Shown: positions 5,910 to 31,826 of the stretch, in pieces
How positions within the stretch are numbered: position 1 is the first letter of the stretch
How the letters are laid out: each line of letters begins with the position of its first letter
NCBI GenBank assembly: GCA_902786345.1
Contig: CADACB010000012.1
Location: 1-43,803, forward strand
Direction: 5' to 3'
DNA from: an uncultured Ruminococcus sp.
GTDB taxonomy: Bacteria; Bacillota; Clostridia; Oscillospirales; Acutalibacteraceae
DNA length: 43,803 nucleotides
Notes under the pieces: generated by a model
Seen by the model: the letters and a program-made list of their open reading frames with translations, nothing else
Database searches by the model: none
What the model was told of the DNA's origin: nothing
Translations under genes and position numbers: made by a program

Positions 5910-5911
5910 GC

Positions 5912-6122
5912 TTATTTTTTCATATTTTCAGAAAGCAGACACATCCGATATGCGGCACAAGAAGCTAAGCTGAAGTCTTTGTGGGGAGTCGTGGCAAAGA
6001 GCTGACAAAATCTGCCGTTTAAAGTTATAGCATAACAACGCTCAGAACAGTACAATAAAGAATAATTTTCTATAAAAAGTTTAGCCGTCAAGTGGGGTAA
6101 TACCCTGCCTGACGGCTTTGAT
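5912..6122 (+). ncRNA. Structured non-coding RNA, raiA-motif-like
   Basis: About 210 bases between convergent genes hold a chain of mutually compatible helices: CATAT/ATATG (5921-5925 with 5948-5952), GCAGA/TCTGC (5935-5939 with 6011-6015), CTTTG/CAAAG (5977-5981 with 5995-5999), GAGC/GCTC (5999-6002 with 6040-6043), GTTAT/ATAAC (6024-6028 with 6032-6036) and a strong terminal hairpin AGCCGTCA/TGACGGCT (6083-6090 with 6110-6117). A promoter stands at 5878-5905 and no open frame fills the region. Words such as GGGGAGTCGTGGCAAAG and the purine-rich loops resemble, from memory, the raiA-motif RNA of Firmicutes. The family name is inference; the helices are seen directly. The RNA seems to end at its own terminator-like hairpin. 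Confidence 0.6.
6083..6121. terminator. Bidirectional hairpin terminator (nagZ/RNA and degV)
   Basis: AGCCGTCA (6083-6090) pairs with TGACGGCT (6110-6117), and an inner GGGTA/TACCC extends the hairpin. T-rich sequence flanks both sides (TTTGATAC on plus, AAACTTTTTAT on minus), so it probably ends both convergent transcripts. Confidence 0.6.
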
Positions 6123-6232
6123 ACTTGTATTATTAACGGATTTTGCGGTTGCTCTGCGGATTTTTTATCGTACTTTGAGTTAAACTATACACTTATATTT
6201 TGTGTAAAATTACCTTACTGTAAAAACAGTCT

Positions 6233-7105: not shown

Positions 7106-7147
7106 TGATCTCATCCTCCCGATAAAGCTGTATAGTAATTATTTTAC

Positions 7148-7156
7148 ATTATAACA
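7148..7156 (-). promoter_or_regulatory. Extended -10 element for degV
   Basis: Minus-strand TGTTATAAT (7156-7148) predicts a start near 7141 and a leader of about 36 nt. No good -35 box is seen at the right distance. The rest of 7160-7440 is AT-rich gene-free sequence in which I see no feature. Confidence 0.4.
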
Positions 7157-7448
7157 ATATTAAGTATATAATATTTATCGTCAAATATCAATTGATTTTT
7201 TATTTTCGGGAAATTATAATAAATAATGTGAGACAGAGTTTTTTTAAGCTATTTTGCAGTGAACTGATTAAATGGATTACGGAGATCAGTTTTTAAATCT
7301 GACAGCTGAGATCTTATAAACTTATTCTTTTGAAAATTGTTTTGAAGGTATATTGTTATAAATAAAATGTTCAGCAGTTTTAGGAAAGGTTTTTTAAAAT
7401 GTAACTGCCATATCAGAATTGATTTTCGTGTAAATGAATGACTGCTTA

Positions 7449-17912: not shown

Positions 17913-17944
17913 AATACAGAATTAAATGTATAGGAATGTGTGTT

Positions 17945-19054
17945 ATGACGGTTTCACTTTGTATAATCGCATATAATGAAGAAAGTTCATTGGACGCTCT
18001 TTTAAAGCAGGTTAAGGCTCAGACATATCCTTGTGATAAGCTTGAACTTGTTTTTGTTGACAGCTGTTCTGAGGATAATACCAAGCAGATATTTACTGAT
18101 TTCAGAGATAATAATAAGGATAACTATATTGATATAAAGGTGCTTGATAATCCAAAGAAAAGTCAGGCAGCAGGCTGGAACACGGCTATAAAGTCTGCAA
18201 TGGGTGATGTTATAATAAGACTGGACGCACACGCAGAGATACCTGAAAATTTTGTTGAAAATAATGTAAAGCTTATACAAAGCGGAGAGGATGTCTGCGG
18301 AGGAGCACGTCCTAACAAAATAGATTCTCCTACACCTGTAAAGAAGATGCTCTTTCTTGCTGAAAGCTCTATGTTTGGCAGTTCAGTTGCCGGTTACAGA
18401 CGAAAGAACAGTGAAAAAAAATATGTTGACTCCGTTTTTCACGGTGCATATAAAAGAGAAGTTTTTGAAAAAACAGGCGGCTTTAATGAAAATCTTGGAC
18501 GAACAGAAGACAATGAGCTGCACTACAGAATCCGGAAGGCAGGTTATAAGATCTGTCAGGGAAGCAATATAATTTCATATCAGCATATAAGAGGTGATAT
18601 GTCCTCTATGCTGAAACAAAAATACGGTAATGGAAAATGGATAGGCCTGACGCTCGGAGTGTGTTACGAATGTCTTTCGGCATTTCATTTTGTACCGTTT
18701 TTCTTTGTGTTGATACTTATTTGTTCACTGCTGCTTTTTGTCAGCGGATTTATAACCGGAAATCTCTGGATGATAACGCCTTTTTTAATGTTGATGAGTG
18801 TTTATCTTGCTGCTGACATCATAATGACTCTGGCGGCAATTATAGGATCAGAAAAAAAGCATATGGTTCAGTTTTTACTGCCCTTTGTTTTCTTTCTTCT
18901 TCACCTGTCATACGGATGGGGAACGATAGTTGGTATTGTTAAAATGCCGTTTTGGAAAAGAAAACTCGGCAGTGATGCTGAAGAAGAGATTGAAAATGTC
19001 AGAAATTGTGTTATAAGAAATTCAAAGGAAAGATCTGCGGAGGTAGATGAATGA
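17945..19054 (+). CDS. GT2 glycosyltransferase, membrane-anchored (ExoA-like)
   Basis: First gene of the surface-polymer operon; a GT-A inverting transferase probably adding a sugar to a lipid-linked intermediate on the cytoplasmic face. The 369 residues start with SLCIIAYNEESSL (4-16) and FVDSCSEDNT, then the metal-binding DAH (94-96) replacing DxD, and GGFNENLGRTEDNELHYRIRKAGY with the catalytic ED. Three or four hydrophobic segments (about 235-330) anchor the C-terminus. ATG 17945 is preferred over the in-frame ATG 17936, because AGGA at 17932-17935 is directly adjacent to the latter but nine bases from the former. The stop overlaps the next start by 4 bases. Confidence 0.9.
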   Translation: MTVSLCIIAYNEESSLDALLKQVKAQTYPCDKLELVFVDSCSEDNTKQIFTDFRDNNKDNYIDIKVLDNPKKSQAAGWNTAIKSAMGDVIIRLDAHAEIPENFVENNVKLIQSGEDVCGGARPNKIDSPTPVKKMLFLAESSMFGSSVAGYRRKNSEKKYVDSVFHGAYKREVFEKTGGFNENLGRTEDNELHYRIRKAGYKICQGSNIISYQHIRGDMSSMLKQKYGNGKWIGLTLGVCYECLSAFHFVPFFFVLILICSLLLFVSGFITGNLWMITPFLMLMSVYLAADIIMTLAAIIGSEKKHMVQFLLPFVFFLLHLSYGWGTIVGIVKMPFWKRKLGSDAEEEIENVRNCVIRNSKERSAEVDE

Positions 19055-19926
19055 ATACAACAACCGTACAAAAGACAAAGAAAGGTTTCTTCGGCAGACT
19101 CTGGGACGGTATGGCAGCTATTCCAAGAGAACACAGGGGATTTGGCAAACAGGTTTTTATGCTTGCCAAGAATGATCTTATAAAAACATATAAGGGCGCT
19201 ATAATCGGTCCGTTCTGGGCTGTAATGAAGCCGCTGTTTCAGCTTTTTGTTTATTGGTTTGCATTTTCCGTCGGACTTCGCGGCGGTGCAGACAGACTTG
19301 AACACGGAATAGGCTTTTTTGTTTTTATTATGGTGGGCTTTCTGCCGTGGACATTTATGAGTGAGGCAATTTCAAAAGGCTCAAAGTGTATCAGAAATAA
19401 TAAGCAGTTTGTAAATAAGATCTCATTTCCTGTTTCAGCAATAATGACATATACAACGATGGCAAAATTCTATGTTCAGATATTTTTGTTTTCTCTTGTA
19501 TATTTATATCTTGCAATTGCAGGCTTTACCCCCAGTCTTTATAACCTGCAAATAATAATGTATATGATAATGATGTTCGTGTTTTTCCTTGCACTTGTGT
19601 GGTCGCTTGCACCGATGAGCGCCTTCAGCAAGGATTTTGAAAGTCTGATAAATACTGTAATGTCAGGTTTGTTCTGGCTTTCAGGCGTATGCTTTGATTC
19701 ATATACCATAGATAATGAGTTTATAAGAAAAATTCTGCTTTTTAACCCGATGACATATTTCTGTAACGGTTTCAGAAAAGCACTGATATATAACCAGTGG
19801 TATTTTGAGGGATTTTATAAGCCAAATTACGAAAATCTCATATTTGTTGCCGAATTCATACTGGTGATTTTTCTTGGTATGTTCAATTATAACCGACTTA
19901 AAAAACGTCTTCCTGACGTTTTATAA
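19051..19926 (+). CDS. ABC-2 type polysaccharide/teichoic-acid export permease (TagG/Wzm type)
   Basis: A 291-residue membrane subunit of an ABC exporter for lipid-linked surface polymers. It has a cytoplasmic N-terminal amphipathic region (ELAKNDLIKTYKGAIIGPFWAVMKPLFQL in outline), six hydrophobic segments and the typical NKISFPVSAI and LFNPMTYFCNGFRKAL segments of the family. The start overlaps the preceding stop (ATGA), showing tight coupling to the GT2. Its ATPase partner (TagH/Wzt), normally the adjacent gene, is missing; the next gene is a polyol-phosphate transferase. The ATPase must come from elsewhere in the genome. The substrate is inferred from context only. Confidence 0.88.
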   Translation: MNTTTVQKTKKGFFGRLWDGMAAIPREHRGFGKQVFMLAKNDLIKTYKGAIIGPFWAVMKPLFQLFVYWFAFSVGLRGGADRLEHGIGFFVFIMVGFLPWTFMSEAISKGSKCIRNNKQFVNKISFPVSAIMTYTTMAKFYVQIFLFSLVYLYLAIAGFTPSLYNLQIIMYMIMMFVFFLALVWSLAPMSAFSKDFESLINTVMSGLFWLSGVCFDSYTIDNEFIRKILLFNPMTYFCNGFRKALIYNQWYFEGFYKPNYENLIFVAEFILVIFLGMFNYNRLKKRLPDVL

Positions 19927-19956
19927 TAATTTGATTTGCAGACGGAGGTTTCAGTA

Positions 19957-21156
19957 ATGGAGGAAACTTTTTTTCAAAAGCTGCAAAGAGTTAAAATAGG
20001 GGATATAGGTCATATATTCCTTTTTTTAATTGCCCTGCCTGTTTCGCTTATCTACAGACTTTTCAGAAAAAATATCTGGCTGATATGCGACAATAAAAAT
20101 GAGGCACGTGATAATGGTTATCACCTGTTCAGATATATATGTGAGAATCATCCTGAGCAAGATGTTGTATATGCTATCAGTAAAAAATCAAAGGATTACA
20201 GCAGAGTAAAGGATCTGGGTAAAACAGTAAATTATGGCACACTCAGACATTGGATAATATATCTGTCTGCTAAAAAGAATATCAGCTCACAGAAGGGCGG
20301 CAAGCCTAATGCGGCTGTCTGTTATTTTCTGGAGGTAAACAGGATTCTCAGAAATACGAGAGTTTTCCTTCAACACGGAATAATACATAATAACAATGAA
20401 TTTCTTCATTATAAAAATACAATGATGAAGATGTTTGTTGTCAGCACACAAAGAGAATATGAATTTGTATGTGATAAATTTGGTTATCCGGACGGAGCTG
20501 TAAAAAAGCTTGGGCTTTGTCGTTTTGATAAGCTTCATCAGGTGAAAGTAAAGACAAAACAAATTTTACTGATGCCTACTTGGAGAAGCTGGATAGCCAC
20601 TCCCACGTCTGCTTCATCTGATATTGAAGATGTTTCTGATTTTAAAAACACCGTATACTATAAAGCATGGAGTGAATTTCTGAGTAGTCAGCGTCTTGAA
20701 CGTATACTTGAAGAAAACGATCTGGAACTTGTTTTCTATCCTCATCGTGATATGCAGAGCTTTCTTGATAGCTTTAATATAAAAAATAACCGTATAAAAA
20801 CTGCGAAATTCCCTGAATATGACGTTCAGGAGCTTTTGAAGGAATCAGCATATCTTATAACTGATTATTCAAGCATTGCGATGGATTTTGCATATATGAA
20901 TAAACGTCTTATGTATTATCAGTTCGATTATGATGATTTTCGTAAGGGACAATATCCGGAAGGATATTTCAGCTATGAAAAGGATGGTTTCGGCAAAGTA
21001 TGCTATACTTTGGAAGATACGCTTGCAGAAATTGAAAATGCTGTAATTGATGGTTTTGATAATCCTGAAGAATATCAAAAGCGTCATAATGAGTTTTTTG
21101 ATCTTTATGATACAAATAACTGCCAAAGAAATTATAATGCTATAAAGGAATTATAA
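19957..21156 (+). CDS. CDP-glycerol glycerophosphotransferase-family protein (TagB/TagF-like)
   Basis: Transfers a polyol-phosphate (classically glycerol phosphate from CDP-glycerol) onto a membrane-bound glycan. The 399 residues have a hydrophobic N-terminal helix (about 19-35) for membrane attachment, then a GT-B-like Glyphos_transf domain with LQHG (138-141), LLMPTWR (204-210), YPHRDM (261-266) and TDYSS (302-306), the conserved residues known to matter in TagF. The in-frame TTG at 19936 is rejected for ATG 19957, which has GGAGG at 19944-19948 eight bases upstream. The actual polyol donor is unknown; no tagD-like CDP-glycerol synthase is in the window. Confidence 0.88.
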   Translation: MEETFFQKLQRVKIGDIGHIFLFLIALPVSLIYRLFRKNIWLICDNKNEARDNGYHLFRYICENHPEQDVVYAISKKSKDYSRVKDLGKTVNYGTLRHWIIYLSAKKNISSQKGGKPNAAVCYFLEVNRILRNTRVFLQHGIIHNNNEFLHYKNTMMKMFVVSTQREYEFVCDKFGYPDGAVKKLGLCRFDKLHQVKVKTKQILLMPTWRSWIATPTSASSDIEDVSDFKNTVYYKAWSEFLSSQRLERILEENDLELVFYPHRDMQSFLDSFNIKNNRIKTAKFPEYDVQELLKESAYLITDYSSIAMDFAYMNKRLMYYQFDYDDFRKGQYPEGYFSYEKDGFGKVCYTLEDTLAEIENAVIDGFDNPEEYQKRHNEFFDLYDTNNCQRNYNAIKEL

Positions 21157-21167
21157 TTTTGTTTTCG

Positions 21168-21196
21168 TTGACAGTAATTTACATATATGTTATGAT
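21168..21196 (+). promoter_or_regulatory. Internal promoter ahead of the Stealth gene
   Basis: TTGACA (21168-21173), a 17-bp spacer and TATGAT (21191-21196) sit in the 101-base gap after the TagB-like gene and predict a start near 21203. It can drive the second half of the locus independently. Confidence 0.7.
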
Positions 21197-21257
21197 TATC
21201 TAATACGGATATTGTCATTTATAAGCATTAAGTTGAAAGAACGGTGATGTCTTGGAT

Positions 21258-22250
21258 ATGATAGATTTTGTAATACCTTGGGTTGACGGTAACGATCCCG
21301 AATGGCAAAAGGAAAAGGCACATTATAATCCTTCCTCAATGTCTGAAAGCGGTTCTGCTGTGCGTTACAGAGATTGGGATAATCTTCAGTATTGGTTCAG
21401 AGGCGTAGAAAAATTTACACCTTGGGTAAATAAGATACATTTTATAACCTGGGGACATATTCCTTCGTGGCTAAACACCGATCATCCAAAGCTTAATATT
21501 GTAAATCACCGTGATTATATACCTGAAAAGTATCTTCCAACTTTCAGTTCACATACTATAGAGCTTAATATGCACCGTATCAGCGGTCTTTCAGAACAAT
21601 TTGTTTATTTTAATGATGATATGTTTATTACCAAGCCAATGAAGGAAGAGGAGTTCTTTAAAAACGGACTTCCCTGTGATACCTTCGGACTGAACTGTAT
21701 ATATTTCGGACACGATAGTGCAGGACATTTTAACGGATCAAATATGGAGGTCATCAACACTGAGTTTAAAAATAAAAAGGCAATAAAAAAACGCGATTTT
21801 CGTAAATGGTTCAATATAAAAAACGGCTTGAAGATAAATGTCAAAACTGCAATGCTGAATATGTGGGAGTGGTTCCCGGGTTTTCATTATAATCATCTTC
21901 CCACAAGTTTTCTGAAAGAGACTTTTGATGAGGTGTGGGAGAAATATTATGATGTGCTGGATAAAACATCAAATGATAAATTCAGAAGGGAATCAAATGT
22001 AAACCAGTGGCTTATGAAATACTGGCAGCTTTGTACGGGTAAATACAGTGTTCGTTCAGACAAATTCGGAAACTGCTTTCATATCAGTGAAGAGAATTTT
22101 GACGAACTGTGTAGGGCAATTTCAAAGCAGAAATATGAAATGATCTGTGTTAATGACACCCCGAGAACGATAAATTTTGATGAGAAAAAACAGATTGTGA
22201 ATGGATGCTTTGAAAAAATTCTTCCTGATAAATCCGGTTTTGAAGTTTAA
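21258..22250 (+). CDS. Stealth-family sugar-phosphate (capsule) phosphotransferase
   Basis: Stealth proteins transfer hexose-1-phosphate from a nucleotide sugar, building phosphodiester-linked glycans. The 330 residues carry the four conserved regions: CR1 IDFVIPWVDGNDPEW at 2-16, CR2 from DNLQYWFRGVEKFTPWV to YFNDDMF, CR3 HLPTSFLKETFDEVW and CR4 NDTPRTINFDE near the end. TTG at 21252 is an alternative start two codons upstream, but ATG 21258 is better spaced from the weak GGTGATG at 21243-21249. It indicates that the polymer made here contains sugar-phosphate linkages, consistent with the neighbouring polyol-phosphate transferases. Confidence 0.92.
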   Translation: MIDFVIPWVDGNDPEWQKEKAHYNPSSMSESGSAVRYRDWDNLQYWFRGVEKFTPWVNKIHFITWGHIPSWLNTDHPKLNIVNHRDYIPEKYLPTFSSHTIELNMHRISGLSEQFVYFNDDMFITKPMKEEEFFKNGLPCDTFGLNCIYFGHDSAGHFNGSNMEVINTEFKNKKAIKKRDFRKWFNIKNGLKINVKTAMLNMWEWFPGFHYNHLPTSFLKETFDEVWEKYYDVLDKTSNDKFRRESNVNQWLMKYWQLCTGKYSVRSDKFGNCFHISEENFDELCRAISKQKYEMICVNDTPRTINFDEKKQIVNGCFEKILPDKSGFEV

Positions 22251-22274
22251 ATTTTATGTTTTGGAGTGAAAAAA

Positions 22275-23420
22275 TTGAAATTTGATAAAAACGATACATC
22301 TGCCATTAAGGGTTTGGCTATATTGTTTATGATGCAGCACCATAACTTTTGTTCGCTTGACAGGTTTGATGACTTTACAGTTAACTTCTTTCCCTTTTCA
22401 CAATCTGCAATTGTCACATTCTCAAATTTTCTTAAGATATGTGTTGGAATGTATGTGTTTCTCAGCGGTTACGGACTGACTGTATCACTGAAAAAATATA
22501 ACAGTGACAATACTCTGAATGGAAAACAGTATAAGGATTATCTTTATCGAAGACTCTGGAAGCTTATGGCAGGCTATTGGGTTATCTACATTCTGGGTTT
22601 TGTCATAACACTTATAGTTAATCAGAGGCCTTGGGAAGTATACTTCGGTAAGGGAATAATAACCGGTATGTACAGCATTGCAGCGGACATATCCGGACTT
22701 GCATATCTTTTCAATACACCGACTCTTAACGGTACGTGGTGGTATATGACACTGGCTATATTCATAATTCTGATATTGCCGTTCATTGCAGGACTGATGA
22801 AAAAATACGGTCCGCTTCTTGTAATGATGCTATGTCTTTTCATACCCCGTATAATATCGTTTTATGTTCAGCTCCAGCCTGATAATAAAGCAAATATTTC
22901 ACGCTGGTTTTTTGCAATAGTTCTTGGTATGATATGTGCACAGTATGACCTGCTGGCTAAGGCAAAGGGCTTTATGATAACAAAAAATAAATATTTAAGC
23001 AAGCTGATAAAATTTGTATTGTATACAGGCTTGCTTGTTGTCTTATACTATACAAGAGTTACACTTCACAAAAAGGGATATTCGTCAATGGCATATGAGC
23101 TTACGGATAACATAATCCCGGCATTTGTGGTATACTACTGTTATGAGTTTGTTGTTGGCATACCCATACTCCGACAGATACTTATGTTCTTGGGAAAACA
23201 TTCAATGAATATCTTCCTGCTGCATACCTTTATAAGACAGTATCTGCTCAGAGAGTTTATATATTCATTCAAGCATTTTGCATTAATAACACTCGTTTTA
23301 CTTGTTCTGTCTTTGGCAGTATCTGTATTTATAGAGCTGCTGAAAAAGTATTCCGGCTTTAATAAGCTTATAGGTTTTGTTGATAAGAAGATCTCTGAAG
23401 GAGTATCAGAAAGGACATAA
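22275..23420 (+). CDS. Acyltransferase family 3 (OafA-like) membrane protein
   Basis: A 381-residue integral membrane acyltransferase (Acyl_transf_3) with about ten hydrophobic segments. The family hallmark is in the first helix: IKGLAILFMMQHHNF, with the conserved basic-Gly-x and the double His. LGKHSMNIFLLHTFIRQY near the C-terminus is also typical. Such enzymes O-acetylate surface glycans using acetyl-CoA. GGAG at 22263-22266 lies eight bases before TTG 22275; the upstream in-frame GTG 22266 overlaps the ribosome site, so TTG is chosen. It forms a tight group with the Stealth gene (24-base gap) and the next transferase (4-base gap). Confidence 0.88.
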   Translation: MKFDKNDTSAIKGLAILFMMQHHNFCSLDRFDDFTVNFFPFSQSAIVTFSNFLKICVGMYVFLSGYGLTVSLKKYNSDNTLNGKQYKDYLYRRLWKLMAGYWVIYILGFVITLIVNQRPWEVYFGKGIITGMYSIAADISGLAYLFNTPTLNGTWWYMTLAIFIILILPFIAGLMKKYGPLLVMMLCLFIPRIISFYVQLQPDNKANISRWFFAIVLGMICAQYDLLAKAKGFMITKNKYLSKLIKFVLYTGLLVVLYYTRVTLHKKGYSSMAYELTDNIIPAFVVYYCYEFVVGIPILRQILMFLGKHSMNIFLLHTFIRQYLLREFIYSFKHFALITLVLLVLSLAVSVFIELLKKYSGFNKLIGFVDKKISEGVSERT

Positions 23421-23424
23421 TAAA

Positions 23425-26115
23425 ATGGACAGGAATATCAAAGATAAGCTTTTTTCATTTGTTATATATACATCCAACGAACATTACAATACCACTATAG
23501 ACAGCCTGATTTCTCAGGATATTGAAGACGACAGCAATATACAGATCATATTGTTGAAAAACAGCAGCTTTAACGCAGATAATTATCTATCCAATATAAG
23601 TACCGGCATAGAAATAACAGTTGCAGACGGAGAGTTCAGCAATGTTACTGATGCATATACATCGGCACTGAAATATATAAAGGGAAAGTATGTCTGTTTT
23701 ACAGAATGCGGAAGCACATATTCGTCGAATGTTATAAGCGAAGTCACCTCTGTTGTAGAAAGCAGTACAGTTAAGCTTGTTTCAATTTTATCGGATATTT
23801 CAACAGGCAATCAGAATGCACTTGAGATAAACAGGGGCTTCAGGGGTAAGTCAGGAATGATAGATCTGAATGAAAAATATAATATCCCATTTATGTTTCT
23901 TTCAAATCTTTTTATCAACACAGAGTTAAAGCTTGAATTCAGCAAGGATATAAAAACAGAAGAGCTTGTACAAAGTGATTTTATGTTCAGAATTTTTGAT
24001 CAGTCACAGACTATGTATCTTATACGAAGAAAGAACACATTTGTTTCACTGTATACTGCAAGCAGATATGTATATAATTTTTATGAGGATTTCAGATATT
24101 CACTTTCCGACCAGAAAGCTTTCTTTGATAATTTTGTATATGAAAATCTGAACAGTCGTCAGGAAAGTGCAGGCTATGTTCCAAGATATGTTCAGTATAA
24201 TATTATGAAGTATCTGTGCTGGACAATAGCAGTTCCGGGTGCAGAGGATATTTTTGCGTCTGTAATGTCTGTCCATGCGTTCAAGGCATATCTCAAAAAA
24301 GTGCTTATGTATATTGATGACAATGTTATCAATAACTGCGGACTGATACTTGCATACAGATATGTATTATTCAACACAAAATATGACGGACACTCCCGCT
24401 TTATTGAAGCTCCGTTTGCTAAAAAAATGTATTATAACAATACAAAGCTTTGTGAGATGTCAGAAAATGCAACAACCATAGAATTTGTTACACTTGAAAA
24501 AAACAGGCTTGTTCTTCACGGCAGAGTTAAGTATATCGGATGCAGTAAGGAAGAATTCAGGGTTTTTGCATTGATCAACCGTGAAAAAAAGGTATTTGCC
24601 AGAGATCTTGGATATAATTACAACACCAATGTATGGAAAGAAAACGTATATAGCGGAACATCTTTTGAGGTAGAGATCGATCTGACAGAGTATGACGAAT
24701 GTGCAATAGAAATATTCAGTGTGAATAATGGAGATATTGTAAAAAGGAGAGGGCTGAGGTTCGGTAAGTTCTCGCCTCTGGCTTCAAATGTTCCTGATTG
24801 CTATTATTATTCTCAGGGAAGAATTATGACATATAACAGAGGTTCGTCATCAATCATTATCGAGAGAGCATCGGGATTCAAAAAATTCAAAAAGGAAATA
24901 AAATATCTCAGGACATTACGCAGGCTTAAAAATGATTATGCGTCACACGCTTATCTTGCAAGAATTTTGTATCATTTCTCCAAGCCGTTCCACAGAAAGA
25001 AGATATGGCTTATTTCAGACAGAACTAACAGGGGAGATGACAACGGCGAAGCATTCTTTAAGTATATGCAGACCGTAAAAAACCGAAAAATAAAGTGTTA
25101 TTTTGTAATTGACAAAAAATCAGATGAGGGCAAGCGTCTTTCAAAAATCGGAAAAACAATTTCTACAAATTCCAAAAAGCATAAGATGTATCATCTGATG
25201 AGTTCTTATGTTATTTCATCACAGGGAAACAACCCTGTTGTTAATCCGCTGTTGGGAGGAAATATCTATTATCGTGATATTTTATGTAAGCTTAGGTTTG
25301 TATTTTTGCAGCATGGTGTAACAAAGGATGATATTGCAGGCTGGCTTAATTTGTATAACAGAAATATTTTTGGATTTATAGTGACTACCAATCCGGAGTA
25401 TAAATCTATTTTTGATTACGATTATTTCTATAAGCCAGAAAATGTATGGCTTACCGGTATGCCGAGAAATGACCTGCTTTATCACGATGAAAAGAAGTAT
25501 ATAACTATTATGCCCACCTGGAGAAAGTCTCTTATGACAAAGCCAGACCCTGTAACGGGTATCTGGATCATCAGGGATGACTTCAAGGAGAGCAAATATT
25601 TTCAGTTCTATAATTCCCTTCTTAATGATGAAAGGCTTATAAGTGCTGCCAAAAAATATGGTTACACCATATGCCATAAGCCTCATCCGAATATAGAGCC
25701 GTATATAGATATGTTTGATAAAAATGATGACGTAATGTATTTTTCAACAGATAAGCCATACAGGGAAATTTTTGCGGAATCAGATCTTATGCTTACCGAT
25801 TACTCCTCAGTTGCGTTTGACTTTGCATATCTTGGCAAGCCTATAGTTTATGCCCAGTTTGATAAACAGGCATTTTTCAGCGGAGAGCACTCATATACGG
25901 CAGGTTATTTTGACTATGAGCGTGACGGCTTTGGAGATGTTACTTATGATCTTGACAGTACAGTCAACTGCCTGATAGAGTATATGAAAAACAATTGTGA
26001 ACCAAAGGCTGAATATCTTGAAAGAATACACAATACCTTTGCTTTTCTTGATAGGGATTGCTGTAAAAGAGTTTATGAAAAGCTTATTGAAAATGAAAGC
26101 TTCAGTAAAAAATGA
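23425..26115 (+). CDS. Large GT2-like / CDP-glycerol glycerophosphotransferase fusion
   Basis: An 896-residue multidomain protein. Residues 1-220 look like a GT-A GT2 fold (FSFVIYTSNEHYNTTIDSLISQ), but the place of the metal-binding DxD reads TECGS (93-97), so this domain may be inactive or use another mode. Residues about 345-480 appear beta-rich. The C-terminal third (from about 525) is a Glyphos_transf domain with LQHG near 628, MPTWRKSL near 695, HKPHPN near 750 and TDYSSVAFDF near 791, like TagF/TarF-type polymerases. AAAGGA lies nine bases before ATG 23425; an in-frame upstream start at 23377 would overlap the acyltransferase gene and is rejected. It is likely to extend or cap the polyol-phosphate chain. 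Confidence 0.88.
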   Translation: MDRNIKDKLFSFVIYTSNEHYNTTIDSLISQDIEDDSNIQIILLKNSSFNADNYLSNISTGIEITVADGEFSNVTDAYTSALKYIKGKYVCFTECGSTYSSNVISEVTSVVESSTVKLVSILSDISTGNQNALEINRGFRGKSGMIDLNEKYNIPFMFLSNLFINTELKLEFSKDIKTEELVQSDFMFRIFDQSQTMYLIRRKNTFVSLYTASRYVYNFYEDFRYSLSDQKAFFDNFVYENLNSRQESAGYVPRYVQYNIMKYLCWTIAVPGAEDIFASVMSVHAFKAYLKKVLMYIDDNVINNCGLILAYRYVLFNTKYDGHSRFIEAPFAKKMYYNNTKLCEMSENATTIEFVTLEKNRLVLHGRVKYIGCSKEEFRVFALINREKKVFARDLGYNYNTNVWKENVYSGTSFEVEIDLTEYDECAIEIFSVNNGDIVKRRGLRFGKFSPLASNVPDCYYYSQGRIMTYNRGSSSIIIERASGFKKFKKEIKYLRTLRRLKNDYASHAYLARILYHFSKPFHRKKIWLISDRTNRGDDNGEAFFKYMQTVKNRKIKCYFVIDKKSDEGKRLSKIGKTISTNSKKHKMYHLMSSYVISSQGNNPVVNPLLGGNIYYRDILCKLRFVFLQHGVTKDDIAGWLNLYNRNIFGFIVTTNPEYKSIFDYDYFYKPENVWLTGMPRNDLLYHDEKKYITIMPTWRKSLMTKPDPVTGIWIIRDDFKESKYFQFYNSLLNDERLISAAKKYGYTICHKPHPNIEPYIDMFDKNDDVMYFSTDKPYREIFAESDLMLTDYSSVAFDFAYLGKPIVYAQFDKQAFFSGEHSYTAGYFDYERDGFGDVTYDLDSTVNCLIEYMKNNCEPKAEYLERIHNTFAFLDRDCCKRVYEKLIENESFSKK

Positions 26116-26449: not shown

Positions 26450-26478
26450 TTGATATTGGCAAATCAATGGAGTAAAAT
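26450..26478 (+). promoter_or_regulatory. Promoter of the MBOAT-DHHW-FkbH-ACP unit
   Basis: TTGATA (26450-26455), a 17-bp spacer and TAAAAT (26473-26478) predict a start near 26485, 45 nt before the MBOAT start. It gives the cassette its own transcription start. Confidence 0.65.
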
Positions 26479-26529
26479 AAAGTAGTTATGAAAGTTATGT
26501 AAGAAAAAGAAGTTAAAAGGAGAAATATA

Positions 26530-27972
26530 ATGGTTTTTGCGGATTTGTTTTTCTTGTATTTTTTTCTTCCTCTGTGTCTGATCTGCTACTTTGTAAGTAA
26601 AAAGCTCAGAACAAAGAATCTGATACTAATAGTTTTTTCTCTTGTTTTTTATGCGTGGGGAGAACCGCTTTGGGTAATACTTCTATTGTTCAGTGCGGCA
26701 TTTAACTGGTTTTCCGGACTTATGATAGAAGCGAACCGTAAAAGCAAATGGGCTAAGCTGGTTGTTGCCGGAGCGGTAACGGTCGATATTTTGCTGTTGG
26801 TGATATTCAAATACAGTGGTTTTCTGGTGGAAAACATCAACGGGCTTTTGCATATTTCAATACCTGTTCCGCAAATATCATTGCCGATTGGTATCAGCTT
26901 TTTTACCTTCCAGGCAATATCCTATGTTATAGACTGCTATTGGGAGACTGTAACTACACAGAGATCCTTCAAGAAATTTTTGCTCTATTTATCGCTGTTT
27001 CCTCAGCTTATCGCAGGTCCTATTGTCAGATACAGCGTTGTTGAAAACGAGATCAATAAGCGTAAATCGACTATGTCAGATATAAGTGAGGGTGCGCTGA
27101 GATTTATTGTAGGTCTTGCAAAGAAGGTTATTATAGCTAATAATCTTTATGCAATTGTAAAGCAGTTCTATGGGGATGTTAATGCTAACCAGTATAATGA
27201 TATTTCGTCTATGTCATTTCTCGGAACGTGGTTTGTTGTGATTGCATATTCGCTTTATGTGTATTTCGATTTCAGCGGTTATTCCGACATGGCTATCGGA
27301 CTTGGACGTATATTCGGATTCCATTTTGACGAAAACTTTAAATATCCGTTTATTTGTAAGACTATCAGCGAATTCTGGCAGAGATGGCACATTTCACTCA
27401 GCTCGTTCTTCAGGGACTATCTCTTTTATGCACCGATATTCGGTAAGCCAAGAAAATATGTAAATCTGTTCCTTGTATGGTTCTGCACGGGTTTGTGGCA
27501 CGGTGCGGCGTGGAATTACATTTTCTGGGGATTATATTTCGGAGCATTCCTGCTACTTGAAATTAAGATCGGAAAAAAGAAAATGAAGAAATGGCCCTTA
27601 TGGCTGACACATATATACAGTAAGCTTGTTATCGTGATAGGCTTTGGTATTTTCTGTTTCTCAGATATGGGGCAGCTCGGAAACTTCTTTATGAATATCA
27701 GCGGACTGGGAATGCTTTTCCACGGAAATGCATTTGCAGATACAGTAACGTGGAGTACATTTGTCAAGAACATTTTCCTGATAATTGCGGCAATAATTGT
27801 TTCAATGCCTGTGCTTCAGTATATCAAGAAATTCTTCTTTGAATGGGGTAATAATGTTGTTTATACAACAGGAAAGGTGTTGGCGTCTGTAGGCTGTGCT
27901 TATCTTCTTGTGATGTCAAGCATACTGCTTGTAGATTCAACGAATAACCCGTTCCTGTATTTCCGTTTCTGA
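26530..27972 (+). CDS. MBOAT-family O-acyltransferase (AlgI/DltB-like)
   Basis: A 480-residue polytopic membrane protein that passes an acyl group across the membrane to an extracytoplasmic acceptor. Features: an N-terminal LILIVFSLVFYAWGEP typical of AlgI/PatA/DltB, SLPIGISFFTFQAISYVID (117-135), FPQLIAGPIVRY (157-168), FDFSGYSDMAIGLG (246-259), WQRWHISLSSFFRDY (283-297, His287) and GLWHGAAWNY (321-330) with the invariant catalytic His324. AGGAG at 26518-26522 is seven bases before the ATG. AlgI/PatA proteins usually use acetyl-CoA, DltB uses D-Ala-DltC; here an ACP lies three genes downstream, which favours an ACP-borne donor (inference). Confidence 0.93.
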   Translation: MVFADLFFLYFFLPLCLICYFVSKKLRTKNLILIVFSLVFYAWGEPLWVILLLFSAAFNWFSGLMIEANRKSKWAKLVVAGAVTVDILLLVIFKYSGFLVENINGLLHISIPVPQISLPIGISFFTFQAISYVIDCYWETVTTQRSFKKFLLYLSLFPQLIAGPIVRYSVVENEINKRKSTMSDISEGALRFIVGLAKKVIIANNLYAIVKQFYGDVNANQYNDISSMSFLGTWFVVIAYSLYVYFDFSGYSDMAIGLGRIFGFHFDENFKYPFICKTISEFWQRWHISLSSFFRDYLFYAPIFGKPRKYVNLFLVWFCTGLWHGAAWNYIFWGLYFGAFLLLEIKIGKKKMKKWPLWLTHIYSKLVIVIGFGIFCFSDMGQLGNFFMNISGLGMLFHGNAFADTVTWSTFVKNIFLIIAAIIVSMPVLQYIKKFFFEWGNNVVYTTGKVLASVGCAYLLVMSSILLVDSTNNPFLYFRF

Positions 27973-27988
27973 TATGAGGAGAGAAAAA

Positions 27989-29479
27989 ATGGAGAATAAA
28001 ACAAATAGAAACAGCAATGTTCAGAAAAAGAAAAGCTATAATTCATATAAGCGTTCAAGTATCAGGAAATTTTCTTCGATGATCTCACTTGTCATACTTA
28101 TACCTGTTTTTGGTCTGGCTGCAATTTTTCTCTTGGTATTTCCGCGTTCCGATGAATCAATGATAGAAAAAAGAAAGCTTACATCGTTTCCGGAATTTAC
28201 ATTCGAGAATTATTTTAACGGAAAATTCACAAACGGTATAAACCAATGGTACACTGATACTGTTCCTTTTCGTGATGATTTCAAGAATATGGGCAACAGC
28301 TTTAAGGGCGCGTTTGGGATAACTACCGATGATACGATAAATGCTGTCGGCAACTTGAAAAAGGTTGAAAAAAATAAACCAAAATCACAGACGAATAAAA
28401 CCGACAGCAGCAAAACTGAAAACAGCAGTGCTCAAGGCAGCAGATCTGAAAACAGTACAGCCGAAAGCAGTAAGCCTGTTGAGGAATCAAAGCCTGAGGA
28501 AAATTCATCACAGAAGGACTATACCAAGGAAGACGCCGAATATACGGTCGAAAATGGTGTTATTGTTGTCAAGCAGGACGGACATTACAGAGGACTTGAG
28601 CTTTTTGGAGGCGGCACAGGAAATTCATATGTTGAGGCACTCAATACGCTCAGGGGTAAGCTTGACAATAAAATAAAAATGTACTCTATGATAGCACCTC
28701 TTGCAAGCGAATATTATACACCTGCTAATTATACGGATTATACGGCAAATCAGAAGGAATATTTTGATGATCTTGCGTCAAGACTTGATAAGGGTATTAC
28801 AAGCATTGATATTGACTCTGTACTTGCAAAACATGTTGAAGAGCCTATATATTGCCGTACTGACCATCACTGGATGCCGCTTGGAGCATATTATGCTGCT
28901 CAGGAGTTTGCAAAAACCGCAGGGGTAGATTTCAAGGATTTGAGCACATTTAAATCTGAAACAATCAGTGGATTTGTTGGTACAATGTATGCCTTCTCGG
29001 GAGGAGATATTAATATCAAAAATGATCCTGAGGACTTCACATACTATATCCCTGATAATTACTCAAAGTGTAAGACAGATTTCTATAATACATCTTTTCA
29101 ATTTGACTATACAGGCACTTACTTCAAACAGGTGGGTGATCCTCAGTCAAACGCATATCTGACATTCTTCGGTGGTGATGAACAGATTGTAAAGATCAGA
29201 ACCAATGTTAAGAACGGAAGAAAGCTTATTGTTATCAAAGATAGTTATGGCAACGCTGAGCCGGGATATTATATGAATTCCTTTGAGGAAATATATATTG
29301 TAGATATGCGTTATTTTAATCTTAATCTTGTTGATTTTATAAATCAGATGAAGATCACTGACGTTTTGTTCACAATGGTAACCTATTCAGCGTTTGGCGG
29401 TAATGCCGATAATCTTATGACTTTGATTGAACAGAATCCGGGTCAGACTATAGTTGACGGTTATAATCCGGAAGACTGA
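27989..29479 (+). CDS. DHHW/AlgX-AlgJ-like membrane-anchored SGNH-type protein
   Basis: A 496-residue single-pass protein with a basic N-terminus, membrane segment at about 30-51, a Ser/Lys/Glu-rich low-complexity linker (128-178) and an extracytoplasmic catalytic domain. The family signature TDHHW is at 291-295, with KDSYGN (417-422) supplying the SGNH-type Ser419. Such proteins partner MBOAT proteins (AlgI-AlgJ/X, PatA-PatB; DltD is an analogous partner) and complete acyl transfer to the glycan. ATG 27974 is in frame, but AGGAGAG at 27977-27983 lies inside that extension and serves ATG 27989. Seventeen bases separate it from the MBOAT stop. Confidence 0.9.
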   Translation: MENKTNRNSNVQKKKSYNSYKRSSIRKFSSMISLVILIPVFGLAAIFLLVFPRSDESMIEKRKLTSFPEFTFENYFNGKFTNGINQWYTDTVPFRDDFKNMGNSFKGAFGITTDDTINAVGNLKKVEKNKPKSQTNKTDSSKTENSSAQGSRSENSTAESSKPVEESKPEENSSQKDYTKEDAEYTVENGVIVVKQDGHYRGLELFGGGTGNSYVEALNTLRGKLDNKIKMYSMIAPLASEYYTPANYTDYTANQKEYFDDLASRLDKGITSIDIDSVLAKHVEEPIYCRTDHHWMPLGAYYAAQEFAKTAGVDFKDLSTFKSETISGFVGTMYAFSGGDINIKNDPEDFTYYIPDNYSKCKTDFYNTSFQFDYTGTYFKQVGDPQSNAYLTFFGGDEQIVKIRTNVKNGRKLIVIKDSYGNAEPGYYMNSFEEIYIVDMRYFNLNLVDFINQMKITDVLFTMVTYSAFGGNADNLMTLIEQNPGQTIVDGYNPED

Positions 29480-29497
29480 ATTTAATAAAAAAACTAC

Positions 29498-29538
29498 AGG
29501 CTATATACGGCAGATTAAAATCTGTCGGTTAGCCTTTA
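29498..29538 (+). other. Hairpin between the DHHW and FkbH genes
   Basis: AGGCTA (29498-29503) pairs with TAGCCT (29530-29535), enclosing CGGCAGAT/ATCTGTCG (29508-29515 with 29520-29527, one GT pair). Only short T-runs follow, so it could attenuate or mark RNA processing rather than terminate. Confidence 0.5.
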
Positions 29539-29569
29539 TGTTTATTACAAGCGGAAAAGGAGAGGAAAT

Positions 29570-31363
29570 ATGAAGGAGCTTGAATATCCCTTTGATTCTG
29601 AATATATAATAAAAAAGAGAAAATCCATAAAACGTACGCTGCTGTCTGATGGAAGCAGCAGGCTTAAAAAGAAGATCGCAGTTTTTGGCGGATCAACAAC
29701 TAATGATATAGTTGTATATCTTGATCTGTTTCTTCTTCACCACGGAATTGAAGCGGAGTTCTATCAGTCTGAATATGCACAGTATTGGCAGGACGCAATG
29801 TTTCCAAGTGATGAGCTTTTAAGCTTTGCTCCTGATATTGTTTTTATTCATACTACAAACAGAAATATAAGCACTTATCCTGATACGTCTATGAGCAGAG
29901 ATGACGTTGACGCACTGTTAGAAAATGAGTATCTCAAGTTTGAGCAGATGTGGCAGAAAATTTCAGATACCTATCATTGTCCTATAATACAGAATAACTT
30001 TGAGATGCCTTTTTACCGCATTATGGGGAATAAGGACTGCAGTGATTACAGAGGACACTCCAATTTCCTTACAAGATTGAATACAAAATTCTATGATTAT
30101 GCTGATCGTACAGAGGGCTTTTATATAAACGATATTAACTTTATCTCAGCTTCTTACGGACTTAAGGCGTGGAGCGACCCCTCATATTGGAATATGTATA
30201 AATATGCAATGTGTGTTGATGCTATTCCTGAATTTTCGTCCAATCTTGCAAATATCATAAAATCCGTTTTTGGAAAAAACAAAAAAGCACTTGCTCTTGA
30301 TCTAGATAATACACTCTGGGGCGGAGTTGTCGGAGATGACGGAGTTGACGGTATACAGATCGGTCAGGAAACCGGTGTATCACAGTCTTATTATGAATTT
30401 CAGTCATATATAAAGTCACTGAAATCGCTTGGAGTTATTCTTACTGTATGCTCTAAGAATGATCACGAAAACGCCATTGCAGGACTTAATCACCCTGAGG
30501 GCGCTCTCAAGCCGGATGACTTCATTATTATAAAAGCAAACTGGGAAAATAAGGACAGGAATATTGCAGAAACCGCAGCAGAGTTGAATATTTTGCCTGA
30601 TGCGATTGTGTTTGTTGACGATAATCCTGCTGAAAGGGCTATTGTACAAGCACAGCTGCCGGGTGTGAATGCGCCTGTTATGGATAGTGTTGAGAATTAT
30701 ATAACCACAATTGATCGTAACGGATATTTTGAAGTTACGAATTTCAGCGAGGATGATCTCAAGCGTAATGAAATGTATAAGGCAAATGCACAGAGAGCGG
30801 CTCAGCAGGCAACATTTACGGATTATAAAGATTATCTTTTGAGTCTTGATATGACTGCTGTGATTGATGATTTTCTGCCTGTTTACCTGCAAAGAATAAC
30901 TCAGCTTTCAAATAAAAGCAATCAATTCAATGTGACTACAAAGCGTTATACTGCTACTGAAATGGAGGCAGTTTTTGAAAGTAATGATTATATTCGTCTT
31001 TATGGAAAGCTTGTTGATAAGTTCGGAGATAACGGCGTTGTATCGGTTGTTATCGGCAAGAAGGACGGAACCGTTCTCAATATGGAGCTGTGGCTTATGA
31101 GCTGCCGTGTTCTTAAAAGAGATATGGAGCTTGCAATGCTTGACCGACTGGTTGAACGATGCAGGGAGCAGGGAATAAAAACAATAAAAGGATATTACTA
31201 TCCTACAGCCAAAAACAATATGGTAAAAGAGCTTTATGGTTTTTTTGGGTTTGATAAGATAAGCGAAGACGAATCGGGCAATACTGTATGGCAACTTGAG
31301 GTTGATTCCTACAAAAACAGAAATCAGGTTATTAAAGTTGAGGATAATTCCTCTATACAATAA
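29570..31363 (+). CDS. FkbH-like HAD-IIIC enzyme (predicted glyceryl-ACP loader)
   Basis: A 597-residue three-part protein. Residues 35-220 look like an SGNH/flavodoxin-like region (IAVFGGSTTND). Residues 238-360 are the HAD-IIIC core with DLDNTLWGG (244-252), the FkbH-specific CSKN (Cys294) and FVDDNPAER (348-356). The C-terminal 430-580 region resembles a GNAT fold. Characterised FkbH-type enzymes take D-1,3-bisphosphoglycerate, remove phosphate and load the glyceryl group through the conserved Cys onto the phosphopantetheine of an ACP. An ACP gene starts 19 bases downstream. A GGAGAGG ribosome site precedes the ATG. The loaded group here is inferred from family knowledge and could be another phospho-hydroxyacid. 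Confidence 0.9.
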   Translation: MKELEYPFDSEYIIKKRKSIKRTLLSDGSSRLKKKIAVFGGSTTNDIVVYLDLFLLHHGIEAEFYQSEYAQYWQDAMFPSDELLSFAPDIVFIHTTNRNISTYPDTSMSRDDVDALLENEYLKFEQMWQKISDTYHCPIIQNNFEMPFYRIMGNKDCSDYRGHSNFLTRLNTKFYDYADRTEGFYINDINFISASYGLKAWSDPSYWNMYKYAMCVDAIPEFSSNLANIIKSVFGKNKKALALDLDNTLWGGVVGDDGVDGIQIGQETGVSQSYYEFQSYIKSLKSLGVILTVCSKNDHENAIAGLNHPEGALKPDDFIIIKANWENKDRNIAETAAELNILPDAIVFVDDNPAERAIVQAQLPGVNAPVMDSVENYITTIDRNGYFEVTNFSEDDLKRNEMYKANAQRAAQQATFTDYKDYLLSLDMTAVIDDFLPVYLQRITQLSNKSNQFNVTTKRYTATEMEAVFESNDYIRLYGKLVDKFGDNGVVSVVIGKKDGTVLNMELWLMSCRVLKRDMELAMLDRLVERCREQGIKTIKGYYYPTAKNNMVKELYGFFGFDKISEDESGNTVWQLEVDSYKNRNQVIKVEDNSSIQ

Positions 31364-31382
31364 AATCAAAGGAGAATGAATA

Positions 31383-31628
31383 ATGGATACAAAAACAATT
31401 TATGCAAGACTCAATAAGGTTTTTCGTGATGTATTCGATGACGACTCTATTACCGTAAACCCAAAGACAACAGCAGATGATATTGATGATTGGGACAGCC
31501 TTGAGCATATCACTCTTATCAATGCTGTTGAAAAGGAATTCAAAATGAAATTTAAAATGGGTGAAATATCCTCTATGAAAAATGTAGGTGAAATGGCACA
31601 GATAATTGCTGCAAGAGCAAAGGGCTGA
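31383..31628 (+). CDS. Acyl carrier protein of the MBOAT/FkbH unit
   Basis: An 81-residue phosphopantetheine-binding carrier with the attachment serine at Ser39 in DDWDSLEHITL. Size, acidic helix II and spacing to the C-terminal helix are standard. It is not located with fatty-acid genes but directly after the FkbH-like loader, so it is probably a dedicated carrier, the counterpart of DltC in D-alanylation. AAAGGAG precedes the ATG. A strong terminator at 31702-31733 closes the unit. Confidence 0.92.
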   Translation: MDTKTIYARLNKVFRDVFDDDSITVNPKTTADDIDDWDSLEHITLINAVEKEFKMKFKMGEISSMKNVGEMAQIIAARAKG

Positions 31629-31701
31629 TAATTATTTCATATAATATCTGTTGCACATAAATTATGACAATGTTTTGAATTGGATGATTTAACAGAGTTT
31701 G

Positions 31702-31733
31702 AAAACGGCTGCTAAAAAAATGCAGCCGTTTTT
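31702..31733 (+). terminator. Terminator of the surface-polymer locus
   Basis: AAAACGGCTGC (31702-31712) pairs with GCAGCCGTTTT (31722-31732) around a TAAAAAAAT loop and ends in five T. Confidence 0.88.
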
Positions 31734-31797: not shown

Positions 31798-31826
31798 TTG
31801 ACACAAAAAATATTTCGATATATAAT
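31798..31826 (+). promoter_or_regulatory. Perfect-consensus promoter of ilvE
   Basis: TTGACA (31798-31803), a 17-bp spacer and TATAAT (31821-31826) predict a start near 31833. The leader of about 29 nt leaves no room for a T-box or leader-peptide attenuator. Confidence 0.8.

Follow-up and report, generated by a model that had tools for sequence, protein, structure and literature searches.

A candidate Dlt-like cassette for surface O-acylation with an FkbH-family loader in an uncultured Ruminococcus

The stretch of DNA analysed here (the window) comprises 43,803 nucleotides, the whole of contig C12 in the genome of an uncultured Ruminococcus (2.35 Mb over 75 contigs). On its forward strand lie, head to tail and each in an open frame, four genes encoding a membrane O-acyltransferase (MBOAT), a DHHW-family transferase, an FkbH-like loader and an acyl carrier protein (ACP), in that order (Table 1). 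This set had been listed in an initial annotation made from the letters alone, and it is confirmed by the open frames, the gene order, the catalytic residues and the family matches. The closest named relatives of the FkbH protein are from metagenome-assembled genomes (MAGs) of uncultured Ruminococcus and Clostridia. The cassette, in our view, quite probably encodes a transmembrane O-acylation pathway that resembles the Dlt system but is fed by a different, FkbH-type loader.

Table 1. Features of the cassette and its surroundings, in window coordinates
Feature	Position	Strand	Evidence
Surface-polymer gene context	17936..26115	+	Pfam: GT2, ABC-2 exporter, two CDP-glycerol glycerophosphotransferase-like, Stealth, acyltransferase-3
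Promoter-like site ahead of cassette, TTGATA-17-TAAAAT	26450..26478	+	10/12 consensus matches, weak
MBOAT, DltB-like membrane O-acyltransferase, 480 aa	26530..27972	+	PF03062 87.4 bits (cut-off 27)
MBOAT His287 codon	27388..27390	+	aligns with DltB His289
MBOAT residues 300-310 (YAPIFGKPRKY)	27427..27459	+	aligned to DltB 302-312, DltC-contact region
MBOAT His324 codon	27499..27501	+	aligns with DltB active-site His336
DHHW-family (SGNH superfamily) transferase, one N-terminal hydrophobic segment	27989..29479	+	PF14286 172 bits (cut-off 25)
DHHW motif codons	28862..28873	+	D 39, H 38, H 41, W 41 of 43 rows
Nucleophile Ser codon (KDSYGN)	29243..29245	+	S in 41/43 rows, gap in 2
RNA hairpin in DHHW-FkbH gap	29491..29543	+	minimum free energy (MFE) -20.8 kcal/mol, z -4.4, 0/200 shuffles as low
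FkbH-like loader, 597 aa	29570..31363	+	TIGR01686 263.3 bits (cut-off 146.65); FkbH_N PF21211 45.6 bits (cut-off 27)
HAD catalytic motif DLDNT (Asp244, Asp246)	30299..30313	+	D244 and D246 in 62/63 rows
Cys512 codon (MSCRV), GNAT-like domain	31103..31105	+	C in 62/63 FkbH rows
Acyl carrier protein, 81 aa	31383..31628	+	PDB 2lml 73 bits
ACP Ser39 codon, predicted 4'-phosphopantetheine site (DWDSLEH)	31497..31499	+	S in 49/49 ACP rows
Intrinsic terminator hairpin, T-rich tail	31701..31733	+	folding MFE -19.3, z -5.3

The MBOAT belongs to its family by its PF03062 match and its conserved histidines. His287 and His324, both named in the initial annotation, are present and align with the two DltB histidines, the second of which, His336, is the active-site residue of DltB according to the accessible text of PMC11035591. 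Over 38 aligned rows the first position holds histidine in 33, asparagine in four and a gap in one, and the second holds histidine in 36 and a gap in two. DltB is the sole NCBIfam match, at 162.2 bits under its cut-off of 375, and the DltB structures 6bug and 8jem are matched at about 76 bits.

The second protein is placed in the DHHW (SGNH) family by its PF14286 match, by the DHHW block that had already been picked out, by a DxR block and by the nucleophile serine. Its likelier start is the ATG at 27989, preceded by AGGAG, with the ATG at 27974 as the alternative; the serine had been called Ser419, which holds when counting from the former and becomes Ser424 from the latter. Among solved structures it matches 4nzk at 299.5 bits and PatB1 (5v8d) at 26 bits. 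Neither Pfam nor NCBIfam gave a DltD match, the matching models being DHHW and AlgX. DHHW enzymes are described as extracytoplasmic O-acyltransferases, for example PatB1, which acetylates the secondary cell-wall polymer (SCWP) (PMC9487903, accessible text).

The loader is assigned to the FkbH synthases by its TIGR01686 match, the HAD DxDxT motif, the S(K/R)N and DD motifs and the SCR cysteine. It consists of an SGNH-fold FkbH_N domain (residues ~31-235), a HAD-IIIC phosphatase (~235-390) and a GNAT-like domain (~428-580), and its AlphaFold model has a pLDDT of 89.2. FkbH proteins convert 1,3-bisphosphoglycerate (1,3-BPG) to glyceryl-ACP, according to the accessible parts of PMC3679948 and PMC7489565. 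The initial annotation had pointed to two motifs in this protein. DLDNTLWGG is there, but the cysteine of CSKN (Cys294) is a cysteine in only 31 of 63 FkbH rows and was rejected as a conserved acyl-enzyme residue. Cys512 is the likelier glyceryl-accepting residue and may form the acyl-enzyme; the lone row that lacks it is one half of a split gene, and it is also kept in the FkbH of a Streptomyces polyketide synthase (PKS) cluster. The FkbH_N domain (29570-30275) has an SGNH/GDSL-esterase fold, with PatB among its matches; a transferase role for it was not adopted, as the serine of block I is variable, with Cys or Ala-type residues in loci L033 and L037.

The ACP scores 19.9 against the Pfam PP-binding model, just below the cut-off of 20.8, and the annotated Ser39 is invariant. 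Its closest solved likeness is 2lml, which we take to be GmACP3, a specialised ACP tied to lipopolysaccharide genes in Geobacter; to our knowledge, the function of GmACP3 has not been established.

Put together, these parts suggest the following route. AcpS would attach phosphopantetheine to Ser39 of the ACP. FkbH would take D-1,3-bisphosphoglycerate, its HAD domain would remove phosphate and, going by the chemistry of the family, the glyceryl group would pass, probably via Cys512, to the ACP to give D-glyceryl-S-ACP. The loaded carrier would dock on the MBOAT at its cytoplasmic helix, which lies between His287 and His324, in the way that DltC binds DltB; the MBOAT, judging from homology and from the docking-segment signature described below, would move the acyl group across the membrane. 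There, the membrane-anchored DHHW protein (Ser-Asp-His) would take the acyl group and form an ester with a hydroxyl on a teichoic-type polymer or other surface glycan.

With Dlt (DltA-DltC-DltB-DltD), the cassette has in common a carrier protein, a DltB-like MBOAT with both histidines and a membrane-anchored partner of the SGNH superfamily, as well as the predicted logic of loading in the cytoplasm and transfer outside it. The two differ in the loader, which is an adenylating ligase in Dlt and an FkbH protein (SGNH-fold, HAD and GNAT) here, and in the transferase, which is DltD in the former and a DHHW protein in the latter. Three features, namely the want of an adenylating DltA loader, the sub-threshold DltB score (162.2 against 375) and the want of a DltD partner, place outside Dlt a cassette that would work like it. 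The parallel to Dlt with an FkbH-family loader, as drawn in the initial annotation, is supported by families, residues, co-occurrence and docking segment, the last two of which are set out below, and it withstands most of the refutation test set with that annotation.

Co-occurrence was counted in two surveys. The order survey covered 295 genomes, and neighbours in it were scored by profiles built up from the proteins of the window. TIGR01686 matched in 64 of these genomes and exceeded its cut-off in 57; 66 matches, the window's included, lay above the cut-off, and 60 stretches covering 61 of the other 65 were taken, leaving out G102:C59, G136:C25, G280:C12 and G067:C25 (genome and contig). The FkbH was long and window-like in 48 of 61 loci, window included. 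At these 48, an ACP lay within 200 bp in 44, an MBOAT within 5.5 kb in 33, a DHHW gene in 30 and c5, an SGNH-like partner, in 10; ACP, MBOAT and DHHW stood together in 22, and ACP and MBOAT with either partner in 32. Where at least 5.5 kb was available on both sides (35 long-FkbH loci), the ACP was found within 3.5 kb in 33, the MBOAT in 25, DHHW in 25, and the full set of ACP, MBOAT and SGNH-type partner in 25. By comparison, the 13 loci whose FkbH was not long had an ACP in three, an MBOAT in four, and DHHW or c5 in none. MBOAT genes are few (two in the window's genome, one to six in 15 relatives), from which we estimate that chance would place one within ~6 kb in ~1-3% of cases. The grouping, a count of which had been proposed with the initial annotation, is more than chance would give.

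In the database survey, at least 592 contig stretches were found, 585 were confirmed and the best 80 of the 585 were kept; at least five loci (L115, L118, L136, L143 and L170) are common to both surveys. Among the best 80, an ACP lay within 3.5 kb in 71, of which 64 had it within 200 bp, an MBOAT was near in 55, DHHW in 29 and c5 in 17, and ACP, MBOAT and either partner were joined in 39. The 48 of them with full flanks had an ACP within 3.5 kb in 44 (within 200 bp in 41), an MBOAT in 32, DHHW in 17 and c5 in 11. Among the taxa in the record titles of the best 80 are Lachnospiraceae, Oscillospiraceae, Erysipelotrichaceae and Bacilli, together with one MAG contig each for Treponema, Synergistaceae and Endomicrobiellum. 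The set is conserved, and many bacteria have related combinations of its parts. As for c5, it is assigned to SGNH by its motifs and by GDSL or DUF459 matches below the cut-off; homology to DHHW was unsupported (profile comparison probability 0.0).

The coupling extends beyond single loci. A search of the 295 genomes with the window's MBOAT found a window-type protein in 30 (52-100% identity, at least 461 bits; two matches cover only residues 97/98-480, and the G277 match contains an internal stop). All 30 genomes are FkbH-positive, against 57 of 295 above the FkbH cut-off overall; further down the ranking, starting with G170 (449 bits, 49%), no genome has FkbH before G133, whose FkbH is short. 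The hypergeometric tail is 1.4e-25, a value that ignores relatedness and uses a threshold placed at a gap seen afterwards. The MBOAT lies away from FkbH in nine of the 30 (G189, G042, G136, G280, G219, G108, G159, G211 and G181), and in G067, G284 and G225 the two are on separate, partly broken contigs. Conversely, no cassette-type ACP was found in any of 15 FkbH-less MBOAT stretches of 6-12 kb (L208-L222, from 15 of the next 16 genomes, G086 being passed over), 13 of which have clear DHHW neighbours. The ACP therefore follows FkbH, not the MBOAT-DHHW pair.

The region of the MBOAT to which the carrier would dock points the same way. DltC touches Met302, Val305, Ile306, Met309 and Lys312 of DltB, in or near helix HC (PMC11035591, accessible text), and this region aligns with YAPIFGKPRKY of the window's MBOAT. 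The 15 FkbH-less loci carry at this position an IPLGG-like segment (IPMGG in L222, FPLGG in L220) that is one residue shorter than the window's by our reading of the alignment. We counted the pattern P[LMIF]G[GS][NSKR] in 133 distinct MBOATs, having dropped identical sequences and rows without a recognised two-His segment. With an ACP or FkbH within 6.5 kb (n=90), it is absent in 86 and present in four; with neither (n=43), it is present in 33 and absent in 10. These counts are drawn from related sequences and are not independent. All ten unlinked, pattern-less proteins (G178, G108, G136, G280, G181, G219, G159, G225, G067 and G211) come from FkbH-positive genomes, and of the four linked proteins with the pattern, those of L077 and L110 are window-clade members with YVPIGGK. 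A stricter pattern over 130 rows gave absent/present counts of 86/2 for linked and 18/24 for unlinked proteins. The predicted docking segment is thus different between ACP/FkbH-linked and unlinked MBOATs, and this signature suggests that the ACP may feed the MBOAT. The window's protein, having YAPIFGK and a linked ACP, is not of the PatA/AlgI type, whose hallmark we take to be an IPLGG(N)-type segment and no carrier protein; that segment is also seen in the loader-less loci here.

These results bear on the alternative that the MBOAT-DHHW pair carries out ordinary O-acetylation, as PatA1/PatB1 does, while FkbH and the ACP serve something else. Both PatA1/PatB1 (Bacillus cereus SCWP O-acetylation) and CcsH/CcsI (a clostridial pair for which cellulose O-acetylation has been proposed) have the MBOAT+DHHW pairing and the DHHW, DxR and Ser motifs in common with the cassette; the accessible text of PMC9487903 and PMC7710045 describes acetyl transfer for them and names no FkbH or ACP. 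In favour of this alternative, DHHW is far commoner (222 of 295 genomes) than FkbH (64), and a characterised DHHW enzyme does acetylate SCWP (PMC9487903, accessible text). Against this stand the FkbH-positive state of all 30 genomes with a window-type MBOAT, the ACP's staying with MBOAT-DHHW where FkbH is elsewhere, and the docking-segment difference: the loader-less MBOAT-DHHW pairs of the order carry the IPLGGN-type segment, PatA1 itself lying outside the comparison. We consider this alternative very unlikely, and its plain form, with FkbH and ACP as passengers, was rejected on locus co-occurrence, on coupling in trans and on the absence of ACP at the 15 FkbH-less loci.

If the Dlt-like pathway is accepted, its likeliest acyl group, going by the FkbH family, is glyceryl, because no tailoring gene is present in the cassette. 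The export could also be ACP-fed in the same manner with glyceryl-ACP converted before transfer, for example to lactyl or another hydroxyacyl group. In some relatives, tailoring genes do lie between FkbH and ACP (a MaoC dehydratase and an SDR at 5848-7006 of L158; a split transketolase and a MaoC at 10791-12973 of L125), and the acyl group of relatives with MaoC, SDR or transketolase probably differs. For the window, unlinked tailoring enzymes are possible; however, FkbH adjoins the ACP with no gene between them here and in near relatives such as L063, L070 and L113, and we hold conversion to be unlikely. A glycerate ester on a bacterial exopolysaccharide is found in gellan gum (Kuo 1986, referenced in PMC4432689). 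That glycerate is L-configured, whereas 1,3-BPG would give D-glycerate, and the accessible text of PMC4432689 names no enzymes for the ester.

FkbH proteins are better known from natural-product synthesis. The FkbH-ACP modules of PKS pathways (methoxymalonyl-ACP, tetronates) and the FkbH of aeruginosin-type nonribosomal peptide synthetases (NRPS) have the HAD DxDxT, DD and S(K/R)N motifs and the SCR cysteine in common with the window's protein. The accessible literature describes for the PKS cases a small separate ACP and glyceryl-ACP made from 1,3-BPG, as proposed here, and for the aeruginosin-type peptides an FkbH that loads glycerate onto the NRPS and a separate MBOAT that acts on the product. 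The window's FkbH-ACP might serve polyketide or peptide synthesis encoded at another place in the genome, its linkage to MBOAT-DHHW being incidental; known FkbH enzymes serve such pathways, as far as the accessible sources go, and some homologues adjoin PKS or KAS III genes. We regard this as highly improbable. The absence of a polyketide gene, stated in the initial annotation, holds for the 19 window genes scanned, none of which is a PKS or NRPS gene. None of the oxidation, methylation, KAS III and PKS genes of FkbH pathways adjoins the cassette, whose output is a membrane acyltransferase. Service to an NRPS of the same genome was rejected, since no condensation domain was found genome-wide (PKS domains were not searched at that scale). 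Furthermore, FkbH-ACP is paired repeatedly with MBOAT and SGNH-type partners, and MBOAT-linked copies lie beside glycan genes on two alphaproteobacterial plasmids. The initial annotation knew of no characterised example of the combination, and no description of an FkbH-ACP-MBOAT surface system turned up among the open-licence papers listed (titles and abstract starts; subscription papers and preprints lie outside this search).

What the acyl group would be attached to is less firmly indicated. The cassette was said to follow surface-polymer genes, which is true in the window, where the nearest polymer gene ends ~415 bp upstream. A glycerophosphotransferase-like gene, 31-81% identical to the window's, lies directly upstream of the MBOAT in only five near relatives (L106, L107, L108, L109 and L113); other relatives have unrelated neighbours there. 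To the alternative that the acceptor is another envelope component (peptidoglycan, a glycolipid or SCWP) and not the polymer of the upstream genes we give somewhat under an even chance; it is nested within the Dlt-like explanation. It is favoured by the restriction of the upstream polymer gene to five loci and by several scanned relatives having DNA polymerase/transporter, VanW, integrase, GGDEF or histidine-kinase neighbours and not polymer genes; the position of the glycerophosphotransferase-like gene, directly 5' of the MBOAT in those five loci, argues for the upstream polymer.

Several points weigh against the Dlt-like pathway as proposed. First, no MBOAT lies within 5.5 kb in 15 of the 48 long-FkbH order-survey loci and in 25 of the best 80 database loci, some of these being contig ends or short contigs. 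Four of the latter 25 have one at 5.9-6.2 kb. A genome-wide MBOAT search was made for ten of the former (L045, L046, L056, L057, L062, L066, L067, L068, L071 and L082). It found a window-clade MBOAT elsewhere in nine of the ten genomes (in G219, both genes are near contig ends) and one of the L033 clade in the tenth, G178 (L082). In G042 and G189, the distant locus is MBOAT-DHHW-ACP with a cassette-type ACP (L188, L190), FkbH being elsewhere. Thus FkbH and ACP, which the initial annotation expected to stay with MBOAT and DHHW, are sometimes apart from them, with a matching MBOAT elsewhere in all ten genomes checked. L038 (G191) is a real exception, where FkbH-ACP is followed by an SDR; G191 has six MBOATs, whose sequences were not retrieved. 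Second, ACP, MBOAT and partner stand together in only 23 of the 48 full-flank loci of the best-80 set. Third, the window-type MBOATs are one clade, so that the co-occurrence counts lack phylogenetic independence and the docking change within the clade may reflect ancestry and not function; L120 and L175, moreover, are true exceptions to the docking-segment rule. Fourth, the identity of the acyl group hangs on the FkbH family, and the MaoC/SDR or transketolase of some relatives would change it. Fifth, the characterised DHHW enzyme PatB1 transfers acetyl (PMC9487903, accessible text). Finally, the glycerophosphotransferase-like neighbour is common to five near relatives only, and the acceptor may not be that polymer.

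In several genomes with a distant MBOAT, the DHHW-FkbH-ACP sets have near them c7, a family of ~444 aa with a weak DUF308 match (L062 12262-13596, with kin in L046, L067, L068 and L071). As a hidden MBOAT, c7 is unsupported (hhalign probability 0.9).

How the loader came to its partners is suggested by trees. In an MBOAT tree of 130 rows, built by a quick method, the window-type proteins form one 49-row group (SH-aLRT 100) among loader-less MBOAT-DHHW pairs, and the other FkbH-linked groups lie apart, namely L033-L036 (with unlinked L194) and a C42-like group with c5. The three separate groups suggest that FkbH-linked MBOATs arose by at least three recruitments. The FkbH tree (122 rows) requires five changes of DHHW partnership, against 40.2 in shuffles. 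The orphan FkbHs of L045 and L066 group, with modest support, beside that of L043, whose partner is c5; this placement would fit loader replacement. By sequence, contig C42 of the window's own genome holds a second operon of the Dlt-like kind, whose loader is of the adenylating type (L101 896-5356). There, a TetR-like gene is followed by those for an AMP-ligase (300.2 bits against the DltA model TIGR01734, under the cut-off of 559.85, so that its substrate may be other than D-alanine), an ACP, an MBOAT and an SGNH-like protein. The MBOATs of L043, L058 and L065, whose gene order is FkbH-ACP-MBOAT-c5, share 39-41% identity with the C42 MBOAT and are nearer to this protein than to that of the window. 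The C42-type pair is thus seen with AMP-ligase or with FkbH, so that the same kind of export pair occurs with either loader.

Within Bacillota, Eisenbergiella tayi (L150), a cultured species, has FkbH-ACP-MBOAT. Similar sets are found beyond Bacillota. FkbH was matched in 119 of 72,556 plasmid records. Rhodobacteraceae SC52 has ACP-FkbH-MBOAT-partner adjoining sulfotransferase genes, and in S. meliloti, a tractable plant symbiont, a plasmid of RCAM1750 (L230 815-5849) has MBOAT-partner-ACP-FkbH, with genes for a glycosyltransferase and for capsular polysaccharide nearby; S. meliloti 1021 has the same MBOAT and ACP, with FkbH as two overlapping frames in that record, whereas strain 2011 gives a single unbroken FkbH match. 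The SC52 and S. meliloti partners gave no significant Pfam match. They carry GSS/GGS and D..H motifs, and the c5 profile matches the SC52 protein at E 4.7e-5, leaving that of S. meliloti unmatched; by these motifs the alphaproteobacterial partners appear to be SGNH-type. The S. meliloti protein is annotated as 'TonB-dependent receptor', a label to which the Pfam scan gave no support. Other contexts are FkbH-ACP-WcbI-SDR in Niveispirillum, ACP-FkbH and a methyltransferase, with no MBOAT annotated, in Paroceanicella, and FkbH-ACP adjoining KAS III in Pseudalkalibacillus and Streptomyces NBC_00523. A Subdoligranulum plasmid match, in a record without annotated genes, was left unscored.

We are inclined to see in FkbH-ACP a loading module of general use in the O-acylation of surface polymers, fed by glycolysis and adding a third route of activation to acetyl-CoA and ATP-dependent adenylation. 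In Bacillota, separate MBOAT lineages with SGNH-type partners would have acquired it on at least three occasions (the window, L033 and C42-like clades), and the alphaproteobacterial sets of S. meliloti and Rhodobacteraceae SC52 would be further cases. A matching change of the docking helix would go with this, and envelope modification would be tied directly to the level of 1,3-BPG. If so, many clostridia of the gut, along with some bacteria of soil and sea, would decorate their surface with a glycolytic acid without an adenylating step, FkbH enzymes would gain a role outside natural-product synthesis, a hydroxyacid ester would be predicted on clostridial polymers, and a sequence signature would separate carrier-fed MBOATs from the rest.

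Concerning expression, the cassette had been described as a promoter-to-terminator unit. Of this, the terminator stands by its folding; the 31701-31733 hairpin was not among the hits of a simple scan for terminator patterns. The promoter does not stand in the same way, as it is a consensus match only, in a region with 28 promoter-like sites where shuffles give 22.2 (sd 5.3), and sigma-70 matches as a class are no more frequent than expected by chance. Downstream of the terminator comes ilvE, with a 12/12 sigma-70 match at 31798-31826. The hairpin between the DHHW and FkbH genes is a single copy across the genome and no repeated element. It is possibly an attenuator or processing site, and could set the ratio of the membrane parts to the loader and carrier.

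Some variant FkbH loci were also noted. The FkbH domains of G136:C25 and G280:C12 lie within open frames of 1,082 and 1,075 codons, possibly multidomain fusions. In L080, L083, L084 and L087, a short FkbH without this ACP adjoins an MBOAT and another protein family, in which a scan of the L083 member found a polysaccharide deacetylase domain and the L080 member shows SGNH-like motifs; the first histidine is replaced by asparagine in the MBOATs of L080, L083 and L087. In L044, the gene after the ACP (4703-7360) encodes a xylose-isomerase-like TIM barrel fused to an AMP-binding enzyme (only L044 was scanned), with kin in L047 and L049.

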